Shown here piece after piece: positions 27,185 through 30,442 of a stretch of 39,121 bases of DNA. Location: positions 1 through 39,121 of the IMG/VR virus record IMGVR_UViG_3300024265_000126, one strand, 5' to 3'. This DNA comes from a virus. The notes below the pieces were generated by a model. It did not search any database and had not been told where the DNA came from. It saw nothing but the letters and a program-made list of their open reading frames with translations. The first letter of the stretch is position 1. Every line of letters starts with the position of its first letter. Made by a program: the position numbers and the translations under genes.

Positions 27185-30100
27185 ATGACTACGATCATCA
27201 CACCACAAGAGGACGCGCAGCTCGTAGCCGCCGAGGCTACGGCCGCAGGAATGGTCGGCAGTCTCCGCCAAGCATCGAACGATGTAACGGCACAGCTAGA
27301 ACGGATCGCGTTCGCTTCGAAGCACGGCTTCTCCTACGGCGGCGACAGAGACCTGAACACGGCGCTCGGCAGGACCGACCGGCTAACGATCGAGAACTAT
27401 CGTGCTCGCTACCGGCGAGGCGGGATCTTCAAGCGCATCATCAACGCAGCTCCGAAGGCAACGTGGGTCTCGGGTGCGACGATCGAGGAGGATCCGGACC
27501 CGGAGACGCAGACCAAGTTCGAGGCGGCCACCGAGACTTTATTCAAGAGGCTGAATATCTGGAGCCTGTTACTCCGCGCCGATATCCTCGCGGGCCTTGG
27601 CCGGTATTCGGCTCTACTGATCGGCGGCGAAGGTAAAGCGGAGGATCTCGAAGGCGAGATCAGCTTCGGCTCAGACGGACCGACCTTTCTGCGCGCCATC
27701 GCCGAAGACAGGGCAAAGATCCATGAGTTCGAAACAGACACGGAGAGCGAGCGCTTCGGCAAACCCAAGATCTATACGGTGACTCTGAACGCGGACTCTT
27801 CTGGCCGTCTGATCTCTAAGTCTAGGGAGGTGCGGATTCACTGGACACGGATCATCCACATTGTCGACGGCGCGCTCGAGAGTGATGTATTCGGGACACC
27901 TCGAGGGGAGGCTACCTGGGATCTATTCGACGATATCTATAAGGTAGTCGGCGGTGGGGCCGAGGCAGCGTGGAAGGGAATGGATCCCGGTCTGAGCTTT
28001 AATATCGACCCGACGCTTCCTGTCAGCCCGGCCGACGCGAAGAAATTCAAAGAGGAGATCCTAGAGTTTCAGCACGACCCGAGGAAGCGCTACCTCCTGT
28101 CGCGTGGCGTCGAGGTGGATCAGCTTACACCCTCGGTGATGAACTTCGGTTCTAACTCAAAATCGCTTCTGGAGCTGATCGCCGGCACGGAGGAGATCCC
28201 GCTTCGGATTCTCCTTGGAACCGAAAGGGGGGAGCTGGCTTCGTCCCAGGACGAGCGAAACTGGAATAAGAGGATTGAGGAGCGCTGGGCGCTATTCGCT
28301 GAGCCGGTCGTCCGGGATCTGGTCGACCGTTTCATCCAGTTCAAGGCGCTGCCGGCAGTAGCGGAATACCGCGTCAACCGTCCCGTAGCGGCCGAACTCG
28401 ACGCCGAGGAGACGGCATCTCTCGCGGGCAAGATCGCCTCAGCTAACAAGGCACAACGCGACGCAGGCGATACGCTTATCTTGACCTCCGAGGAGATGCG
28501 CAGAAAGCTCTACGACATGGAGCCGTTGGAAGTCTCGGGCGGAGATCCGGAGTCGACCCAGCTTCGAGGAGCGGCCGAACCCGAGGGCGAACACCGAGCA
28601 GTCCGTCAGGCGGCGCTCGCGGCCGAGCCCGCGCACGAAGCTCTCTGGCGCGGTCTGTGGTCCGAGCTGGAGGACGCGCTGCCGTCAGATACCATGCTGG
28701 AATCCGCGATCGGGGCGCTCGACGCCGAAGCGATCACAGTACAGGTCGAACTTGAGGAGTCGACGGGGGAGGTTTCAGATGCTCCGGAAGATCTTCTGGC
28801 CGGGCCGCTCGATCTGATCGACGCCGCGCTCGCGGAAACGATCGAGGACTTCGAGGAGCCTCTCCAGGCTCTACTTTCGAAGACATTGACGGACGGAGCT
28901 GAGCGGTCGCTAGAGGTCATCGACACGCGGGGCTCATATCTCCTGAACGGAGATCCTCAGTTTGCGCCGGCGAAGCGTGGGTTGCTGGGAAGGTTCAGGC
29001 GGCGGGGTGCTCAGTTTGATGCCATCAATCCGAGCGCGGTCAGTTGGGCCACGAACACGGCCGCCAAAAGAATCACGGAGATCGCGGCCGGCTCAAGAGA
29101 GACCGTCCGCACGGTGATAGCTCAGTCGCTCGCGACCGAGGTCTCGATACCGAGAGCGGCGGCGCTGATTCGAGAGACGATTGGACTCAGAGCAGACCAA
29201 GCTCGGGCCATTGTGAGGCTCGGTGTAGATCTAAGGGCCGCGAGTCCCGGCTCGACCGTTCTCAAGGGCGGGCTCAAGTTCAAGGTTCCGCAGTCCGGAG
29301 CGTCGAATAGCTTCGTCAAAAGGTCACAGGCTCGCTATACGAAGAGGGCTCTCCGGGTCCGGGCCGAATTGATCCGTCAGACCGAGACGGCGAACGCCGC
29401 GAACGCTGGCCTTCGGGAGACCTGGAGGCAGGGCCGGGAAGCGGGCGCTCTGCCGTTGAACGTCAAGCGGGTTTGGATTGACTCTGGAGACGACCGGGTG
29501 CGACCAAGCCACGCGGAAGTCAATGGCGAGGAAGTCGGGATCGACGAGGACTTCTCAATCGGAGTAGAGCCCGGAGAGGAGCCGCGCTGCTTCCTGCCCG
29601 GGACTCTCGTATCAGGTCGATTCGTCGCAGGGCTAAAGGCCGACTATTCTGGTCCTGCCAGGGAGATCGAAACGGCTAGCGGGCACAGGTTGCGCCTGAC
29701 CGTCAATCACCCCGTACTCACCACACGCGGCTGGATTGCCGCTTTTGAGATTGAGACCGGAGATCAAGTGCTCGGATACGCGGGCGAGGTCGTGCGGCCG
29801 ACTGGCCCTGGAAAGCCACACGATGACGATCCGCCAGCCCTCATTGAAGATGTATTCGAGACGCTTGCGCTGGGTGGAACACGAGCCGTTGATCTTCATC
29901 CCCATTACCTCCACGGCGATGCGCGCTGGGTTGAAGGCCAGATCAATATTGTAGGGACCGATCGGGTATTGACGGGAGAAGTTGAACCCGCGAGAGGAGA
30001 GACGGGCAGTGAGCTCCGCCTCTCCCTCTCCGATTCGAGCCGGGATCATCTTCTGGTGGGCAGTCTTGGCGCTGGCGATCTTACGACTCATAGGAGTCCT

Positions 30101-30442
30101 GCTCCCTCTGCTGGCGGCCCAAGCCGCTCCGCACTGGCGCTTGATAGCGGCGGGGTCCTTCTTCAGACCCAGCCACTTCACGCTCTCAGCCTCGGACCGG
30201 CCGCGCACTGGAACACCGTTAAGCCGGAAGCGGCGGGACAAAGCGTCACGGCTGATACCCAATTCCTTCGAGAGTTGGTTGACAGAAGCGCCGGAATGAT
30301 AGCGCTGGATGAGGTCGTTAAGATTTTTGATTTCGATTTCCGGGGCCATGTTTACGATCTCCAGTCTGTTACGGGTTGGATTTTAGCTAACGGCATTATA
30401 TCAAGTAACTGCCGTTGCGGTCAGGGATTGGTGGCGGCATGA
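27185..30442 (+). CDS. Portal fused to Mu gpF-like minor head protein, interrupted by an intein
   Basis: The precursor has 1085 residues. Residues about 1-450 are a portal of the DUF1073-like type (NYRARYRRGGIFKRIINAAP, EVRIHWTRIIHIVDG, LLGTERGELASSQDERNW). Residues about 480-801 form a helical linker and the gpF-like domain, with LIRQTETANAANAGLRETWR, WIDSGDDRVRPSHAEVNGE and PGEEPR. The gpF end motif PxxPR-CRCG is split: an intein of 274 residues (802-1075) begins at C802 and ends SN-C1076. After splicing the mature protein would have 811 residues. Portal and gpF are usually separate genes. The portal forms the DNA entry ring; gpF-like proteins sit at the head interior or connector. Confidence 0.88.
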   Translation: MTTIITPQEDAQLVAAEATAAGMVGSLRQASNDVTAQLERIAFASKHGFSYGGDRDLNTALGRTDRLTIENYRARYRRGGIFKRIINAAPKATWVSGATIEEDPDPETQTKFEAATETLFKRLNIWSLLLRADILAGLGRYSALLIGGEGKAEDLEGEISFGSDGPTFLRAIAEDRAKIHEFETDTESERFGKPKIYTVTLNADSSGRLISKSREVRIHWTRIIHIVDGALESDVFGTPRGEATWDLFDDIYKVVGGGAEAAWKGMDPGLSFNIDPTLPVSPADAKKFKEEILEFQHDPRKRYLLSRGVEVDQLTPSVMNFGSNSKSLLELIAGTEEIPLRILLGTERGELASSQDERNWNKRIEERWALFAEPVVRDLVDRFIQFKALPAVAEYRVNRPVAAELDAEETASLAGKIASANKAQRDAGDTLILTSEEMRRKLYDMEPLEVSGGDPESTQLRGAAEPEGEHRAVRQAALAAEPAHEALWRGLWSELEDALPSDTMLESAIGALDAEAITVQVELEESTGEVSDAPEDLLAGPLDLIDAALAETIEDFEEPLQALLSKTLTDGAERSLEVIDTRGSYLLNGDPQFAPAKRGLLGRFRRRGAQFDAINPSAVSWATNTAAKRITEIAAGSRETVRTVIAQSLATEVSIPRAAALIRETIGLRADQARAIVRLGVDLRAASPGSTVLKGGLKFKVPQSGASNSFVKRSQARYTKRALRVRAELIRQTETANAANAGLRETWRQGREAGALPLNVKRVWIDSGDDRVRPSHAEVNGEEVGIDEDFSIGVEPGEEPRCFLPGTLVSGRFVAGLKADYSGPAREIETASGHRLRLTVNHPVLTTRGWIAAFEIETGDQVLGYAGEVVRPTGPGKPHDDDPPALIEDVFETLALGGTRAVDLHPHYLHGDARWVEGQINIVGTDRVLTGEVEPARGETGSELRLSLSDSSRDHLLVGSLGAGDLTTHRSPAPSAGGPSRSALALDSGGVLLQTQPLHALSLGPAAHWNTVKPEAAGQSVTADTQFLRELVDRSAGMIALDEVVKIFDFDFRGHVYDLQSVTGWILANGIISSNCRCGQGLVAA
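29588..30409 (+). mobile_element. Intein in the gpF-like domain
   Basis: Residue 1 is Cys (CFLPGTLV, block A). GHRLRLTVNHPVLT is block B with the TxxH core. FDFRGHVYDLQSVTGWILAN is block F, and GIISSN followed by Cys is block G. The usual penultimate His is Ser here (SN|C), a variant known in some inteins. It sits exactly before the conserved CRC end motif of gpF, a typical conserved-site insertion. The region between blocks B and F has no LAGLIDADG or HNH domain in this frame; instead the opposite strand carries a nuclease gene. Splicing has not been shown. Confidence 0.85.
29633..30349 (-). CDS. Vsr/EDxHD-like homing endonuclease, antisense inside the intein
   Basis: The protein has 238 residues. 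The ATG is at 30349 with GGAG about 9 bases upstream. Residues 8-60 contain a helix-turn-helix (SVNQLSKELGISRDALSRRF) followed by GVPVRGRSEAES, a pattern of mobile nuclease DNA-binding domains. Residues 105-180 are a Vsr-like nuclease fold: RIGEGEAEL (E110), the strand pair with GPYNIDLAF (D136) and RIAVEV (E147), then RKRLEYIFNEGWRIVIVWL. The His-rich stretch expected between VEV and the Arg helix is replaced by GMKINGSCSTQ, so catalytic His may be lost. Its codons are registered exactly opposite the intein's codons. It should cut intein-free alleles to drive homing. Confidence 0.72.
   Translation of the reverse strand: MAPEIEIKNLNDLIQRYHSGASVNQLSKELGISRDALSRRFRLNGVPVRGRSEAESVKWLGLKKDPAAIKRQCGAAWAASRGSRTPMSRKIASAKTAHQKMIPARIGEGEAELTARLSSRGFNFSRQYPIGPYNIDLAFNPARIAVEVMGMKINGSCSTQRKRLEYIFNEGWRIVIVWLSRASRPHDLARVSEHLISGLNLKSGNPAACGEYGVIDGQAQPVPASRFDLPGRTRIVGL
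30395..30424 (-). promoter_or_regulatory. Candidate promoter for the antisense endonuclease
   Basis: On the minus strand CTGACC (30424-30419) and a perfect TATAAT (30400-30395) are separated by 18 bases, ending 46 bases before the endonuclease ATG. The -10 box overlaps the sense codons for the two Ile of the intein's NGIISSN block, using ATT ATA, an AT-rich choice in a GC-rich gene. The -35 lies in the C-extein and stop-codon region. The boxes are seen; promoter activity is inferred. Confidence 0.5.

Follow-up and report, generated by a model that had tools for sequence, protein, structure and literature searches.

The locus described here raises the question of whether an intein can carry a homing endonuclease gene on the opposite DNA strand, in the very codons that encode the intein itself. 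The locus lies in a 39-kb virus record (IMG/VR record IMGVR_UViG_3300024265_000126, positions 1 to 39,121), whose full length of 39,121 nucleotides is referred to as the window. On the plus strand, an open reading frame (ORF) at 27185-30442 encodes a fusion of a phage portal protein and a MuF-like (SPP1 gp7) protein, with matches to Pfam Phage_portal_3 (E 6e-23), Pfam Phage_Mu_F (E 6e-7) and the portal family phrog_146 (E 3e-46). Near the C-terminus of this ORF an intein of 274 amino acids is inserted (29588-30409, plus strand), which runs from Cys1 to Asn274, is followed by Cys+1 at 30410 and has the junctions PGEEPR/C and SSN/CRCGQ. Inside the intein, a minus-strand ORF of 238 codons (29633-30349; 238 amino acids) has its ATG start opposite intein residue 254 and its stop opposite residue 16. 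The initial annotation had placed this ORF at the same positions, with codons exactly opposed and a ribosome-binding site of its own. All of this holds: codon boundaries of the two frames coincide (base 1 opposite base 3), essentially all homologues share the register, and the Shine-Dalgarno sequence GGAG (30359-30362) is separated by 9 nt from the start codon (30347-30362 in total, minus strand). The sequence comparisons described below give good support to dual coding of an intein and a Vsr-like nuclease, and we consider it highly probable that the element is a mobile intein with its homing endonuclease gene on the other DNA strand.

The insertion was assigned as an intein on the basis of its predicted Hint fold, Cys1, the TxxH motif of block B, the C-terminal Asn and Cys+1, features from which splicing would be expected. 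The sense frame matches PF14890 with E 4e-6, which is below the gathering score. In the intein alignment, C1, T38 and H41 are invariant and N274 is nearly so; N274 and Cys+1 are each conserved to at least 90% (alignment A5). Structure modelling covered a subset of the loci, with phage-collection rows excluded. The AlphaFold model of the intein has splicing ends with a predicted local distance difference test (pLDDT) score above 90, and its best PDB folds are the RadA, GyrA and RecA inteins (best E 6e-4). The N-terminal splicing region with blocks A and B and the sequence TVNHPVLT (29588-29782, plus strand) reaches a pLDDT of about 95-98, and the C-terminal region with blocks F and G (GHVYDL ... 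NGIISSN; 30299-30409, plus strand) exceeds 90 over residues 241-275. Between the splicing blocks, a small module at residues 86-123 (29843-29956, plus strand), opposite the catalytic strands of the nuclease, is predicted to be ordered in blocks of pLDDT 80-93. It contains the family motif FHGD, which is LHGD in the window (29909-29920, plus strand).

The antisense protein was recognised as a nuclease by several profiles, namely DUF559 of Pfam (E 1e-5, which passes its curated cut-off), MTES_1575 (E 5e-6) and PRK09767 of NCBIfam (E 1e-6). A profile of the nuclease family matched the PDB entries 3hrl (E 2e-7) and I-Bth0305I (3r3p, E 7e-6), and a Foldseek search with the AlphaFold model, which has a mean pLDDT of 92, gave I-Bth0305I (6e-4) and Vsr (3e-3) as the best PDB folds. 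The protein is thus predicted to adopt a Vsr/PD-(D/E)xK-type fold, with the core at 29816-30022 (minus strand) containing E110, D136, E147 and R163. Among 122 non-redundant homologues, E110 is conserved in 117, D136 and E147 in all 122, and R163 is nearly invariant. The earlier proposal of a helix-turn-helix (HTH) joined to a Vsr-like nuclease with an EDxHD motif is borne out for the nuclease by domain, profile and fold. Of the canonical EDxHD motif, only part is found, the later histidine (position 154) occurring in 64 of the 122 homologues. The HTH (30221-30322, minus strand) is suggested by weak Pfam matches (E 0.004-0.06) and by model helices at residues 10-18, 23-30 and 34-43. The nested nuclease of Rhodococcus phage REQ3 (L016, 2462-3007) does not have the HTH part. 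At locus L201, the antisense frame is open and other residues, read as P and Q, stand in place of the catalytic D and E; judged by its sequence, this nuclease is apparently dead though its frame stays open.

To find out how widely the nesting occurs, relatives were collected with each protein separately. At E 1e-3, a tblastn search with the antisense protein alone returned 122 phage records, and most matches were full length with 24-33% identity. In nearly all records examined the nuclease lies antisense inside a gene annotated as MuF, head morphogenesis or hypothetical protein. The intein protein matched 98 records. Scans of IMG/VR with nuclease sub-alignments gave at least 541 and at least 147 relatives, plus three genome contigs, and scans of viral contigs with the window's own nuclease or intein as a single-protein query found no close relative of the window. 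Where loci had been fetched by the nuclease, the opposite intein frame in the same register was fully open across the whole nuclease match in 181/184, and the remaining two opposite frames typically contained 2-37 stops. The initial annotation had asked whether the antisense frame is freely broken in homologous inteins, and this was not observed. All 160 loci fetched by the intein only (about 140 distinct) carry a nuclease signal and the antisense nuclease is intact in 158, although this fetch took the best 80 matches per scan, so that strongly decayed members are possibly under-sampled. No stop falls within the match in 132 of these loci, 26 have the natural C-terminal stop only and two (L235 and L256) have internal stops; read by eye, 26 of the 28 stops inside the match mark the normal end of the nuclease, where the profile envelope also ends. 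A broken sense frame was found in none of the 160 loci. Another decayed nuclease lies beneath an open intein frame at L155. With internal nuclease stops and an open intein, L155, L235 and L256 look as expected for the degeneration phase of a homing cycle. Two loci considered as counter-examples to nesting were rejected, since L124 is a partial match and L021 a distant free-standing homing endonuclease. Of 84 exteins scanned for domains, 57 contain MuF, seven Phage_min_cap2, three VG15 and one RecA (L079).

These data are consistent with the following mechanism. The sense strand would encode a splicing-competent intein that restores MuF, so that the insertion would cost the phage little. Read backwards in the coincident register, the linker between the splicing blocks encodes the HTH and the Vsr-like nuclease, whose start codon, ribosome site and probably promoter sit in the C-terminal blocks of the intein. 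The nuclease would most likely act on co-infecting phages whose MuF gene has no intein, cutting it at the insertion site, and repair of the cut allele would copy the whole unit of intein and nuclease across. We infer that homing by the Vsr-like nuclease is the likeliest function.

Intein-less alleles were sought by joining the extein flanks. Gordonia phage Geodirt carries a precise uninterrupted allele (600/600 in one piece) that is 97.7% identical to the flanks of the intein-carrying Gordonia phage Fosterous. A joined Salmonella site matched 336 records at 80% coverage or more, and uninterrupted alleles occur in hundreds of Salmonella and Escherichia phages. E. coli phage BEU35 (L019) and Salmonella phage PK1 (L018) have related inteins at two different MuF sites, and each is empty at the site of the other. 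The element is more closely related than the host gene in the pairs L018/L020, L004/L183 and L141/L156, L004 being a family member from Cronobacter. A clear gradient was seen in L018/L020 only, where the inteins are 96% identical and identity of the upstream (N-)extein drops from 0.93 to 0.62 with distance. Taken together, the intein-less alleles, the mismatch between intein and extein divergence and the co-conversion-like gradient indicate mobility. Homing nucleases that act in phage competition are known, and the target here is a virion gene that is intein-polymorphic among phages of the same host. The main benefit might therefore be that the nuclease cleaves MuF of intein-less competitors during co-infection, with homing being secondary. 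By sequence, however, warfare and homing look the same, and the signals of transfer and co-conversion point to copying as well; we regard warfare as the main benefit as unlikely.

Since the codons of the two frames coincide, each codon change can be classified exactly as synonymous or nonsynonymous on each strand. Constraint on the antisense protein was measured as dNN/dNS and constraint on the sense protein as dNN/dSN in nine homologous pairs, some of which share a locus and are not fully independent. Changes at sense positions 1, 2 and 3 numbered 522, 125 and 341 in the overlap, compared to 637, 475 and 1289 in the extein. The antisense dNN/dNS was 0.27 (0.23-0.32) in the overlap, the flanking extein control, in which no antisense constraint is expected, gave 1.15 (1.04-1.27), and the sense dNN/dSN in the overlap was 0.50 (0.42-0.58). 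Along the overlap, the sense ratio was 0.25 in blocks A-B, about 0.45 through FHGD and 0.67 (0.55-0.81) on the HTH side, a gradient that agrees with the ordered and disordered parts of the intein model. The order of the ratios was stable at kappa 1 to 5 in every pair, with L025/L052 nearing 1 at kappa 5.

In a separate test, synonymous codon choice at conserved residues of the nuclease was assessed in an alignment of 122 non-redundant loci built from the nuclease only. Fixed codons were observed for A145 (GCC in 116/119, 56 expected), V146 (GTG in 105/110, 27 expected) and V144 (GTC in 71/72, 32 expected). E147 is encoded by GAA in 100/122, and V214, which lies opposite the block B histidine, by GTG in 95/95. 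Control positions E110, G131, P132, N134 and G171 showed ordinary codon usage. Fixation at the former positions but not at the controls argues that the sense strand retains D-F-H-G-D and block B at sites where the nuclease would tolerate other codons. The data thus show that purifying selection acts on both frames, with sense constraint strong near the splicing blocks and FHGD and weak in residues 128-218, in line with the earlier proposal that the same bases code for two selected proteins.

Several points weigh against this interpretation. The later His of the EDxHD motif is missing from the window nuclease, and sense constraint is weak in intein residues 128-218, a stretch modelled as disordered (pLDDT < 50). 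The baseline for the sense strand is the extein control, and the selection tests were done on relatives, the window itself having no close one among the loci collected. Splicing, antisense expression, target cutting and homing are all inferred. It could be argued that the nuclease alone is selected in the linker and that the sense frame, though open, is no more than a tolerated spacer, without true double coding. The disordered linker (29969-30241, plus strand), which lies opposite the N-terminal half of the nuclease, would fit such a spacer, as would the sense ratio of only 0.67 on the HTH side. However, this value is still below the control of 1.15, and the stretches before and at FHGD, at 0.45-0.46, are predicted to be ordered. 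Moreover, the sense FHGD codons are fixed though the antisense residue permits alternatives, and the splicing blocks overlap the nuclease for about 50 codons in which both frames are constrained (0.25 sense, 0.42 antisense). A mere spacer is therefore an improbable explanation, and double coding of intein and nuclease remains our preferred reading.

The signals for expression of the nuclease gene appear to be embedded in the splicing blocks. The start codon and the Shine-Dalgarno sequence of the nuclease both lie in block F, the ATG as the reverse complement of the histidine codon there. This histidine is encoded by CAT in 90 of 103 loci (31 expected), whereas the block B histidine shows no CAT bias. 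A Shine-Dalgarno-like sequence precedes the nuclease start in 89/122 loci. On the minus strand of the window, a putative sigma-70 promoter lies within block G and the C-extein (30395-30424), with the -35 element CTGACC, a spacer of 18 nt and an extended -10 element, TGATATAAT; one such CTGACC-18-TATAAT arrangement with extended TG was found compared to 0.4 expected. The enriched -10 element falls in block G: TGnTATAAT occurs in 17/106 loci (0.4 expected from sense-synonymous shuffles), and 45/106 have TATAAT or better, for which the shuffles give 8.2 (maximum 15). The nuclease thus probably has its own promoter within the C-terminal blocks of the intein, and antisense transcription of the gene would follow. 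The sigma-70-like site opposes transcription of MuF, and one might suppose that tuning of MuF expression is the main role of the antisense promoter or transcript, with the ORF being secondary. The antisense protein is, however, under strong purifying selection and its catalytic residues are conserved, which makes this very improbable.

In GC-rich DNA, shadow ORFs arise readily in the coincident register, but a GC-driven shadow of the intein frame has a negligible chance of explaining the antisense ORF and is refuted by the independent homology and fold of the nuclease, by the antisense dNN/dNS of 0.27 and by nested nucleases in loci down to 40% GC. No antisense stop was seen in 119 non-redundant loci (546 expected from extein codon usage), including none in the 13 loci below 50% GC (150 expected); this comparison is partly definitional, since the ORF bounds are set by the lack of stops, and it restates that the nuclease-homologous frames are uninterrupted. 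A natural control is provided by Acinetobacter obolenskviruses (L015, 455-1348; L188, 2501-3394), in which a free-standing gene for this nuclease is convergent with a MuF gene that carries no intein. Here, the opposite strand has 12 stops in the nested register. A split intein was considered for L015 and L188 and rejected, as the arrangement is an intein-less MuF gene followed by a free-standing nuclease gene. This nuclease may represent a donor or an escaped form.

A second antisense case was found in Gordonia phage SchottB (L190, 993-4091), L191 and relatives, in which the same MuF site is occupied by a different intein. In the same register, the antisense frame of this intein encodes a protein (YVAAFIDGEGTV) that matches PHROG 5046 (E 2e-15) and is not recognised by Pfam or NCBIfam. 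Its distant relatives are annotated as LAGLIDADG or HNH endonucleases, and a LAGLIDADG-like protein is the best reading of the sequence. Between SchottB and Nordenberg, the antisense dNN/dNS is 0.24, the sense ratio 0.69 and the extein ratio 1.29. The antisense arrangement thus probably arose twice, independently and with unrelated nucleases. We think it rather likely that these loci represent a widespread and old class of phage elements, in which intein and homing endonuclease occupy the same codons on opposite strands with control signals in the catalytic blocks, and that this class has at least two origins, one with a Vsr-like nuclease and one with an unrelated, LAGLIDADG-like nuclease.

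Among known systems, I-Bth0305I (PDB 3r3p) is intron-encoded, and the 'fractured gene' nucleases of Dassa et al. 2009 are reportedly free-standing between split-intein halves. The window nuclease shares with them the fold, the conserved acidic residues, a separate DNA-binding part and the association with phage introns or inteins, but its gene runs antisense through one contiguous intein. Canonical inteins with LAGLIDADG or HNH nucleases likewise combine a self-splicing element with a homing nuclease at a conserved site; their nuclease is, however, an in-frame domain of the intein polypeptide. In a review, the nucleases of inteins are described as fused to the intein (PMC3943268). Group I introns in nuclear ribosomal DNA are known to carry antisense homing genes, such as I-DsqI, for which antisense expression and target cutting were demonstrated (PMC9548176). 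There, too, the homing gene lies opposite the host-gene strand within a self-splicing element, but the element is a non-coding RNA without double coding, in eukaryotic ribosomal DNA and with a His-Cys enzyme. The ShiLan domain, a phage insertion, is open in the host frame and hides an HNH homing endonuclease in another frame of the same strand; it has no intein splicing domain, and no dual-frame selection test was found in the passages covered (PMC11855218). The earlier suggestion of novelty is thus tempered by the group I intron and out-of-frame HNH cases. For inteins, an antisense nuclease appears to be undescribed in the readable literature: no description was found in openly readable full texts, a provisional result with much subscription literature outside.

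The element widens the ways in which an intein can carry a homing nuclease, and it reveals a nuclease gene, missed by annotation, in hundreds of phage capsid genes. Several members of the family occur in phages that infect common laboratory hosts. Two unrelated functional proteins, each conserved across families at about 30% identity, have their codons exactly opposed, which is the Rodin-Ohno register proposed for early coding, and the loci provide a large natural data set on the coexistence of two folds in one DNA stretch.

In the window, portal and MuF are fused in a single ORF, whereas most annotated relatives have separate portal and MuF genes. Vsr-type antisense elements were also observed beyond minor capsid genes, in the RecA gene at L079 and in a dCMP deaminase gene (Virus Rctr197k; L189, 1665-3017). 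The MuF-intein genes of several Salmonella phages (H57, H105 and H116) are annotated as 'NAD+--asparagine ADP-ribosyltransferase', which is apparently a propagated misannotation.

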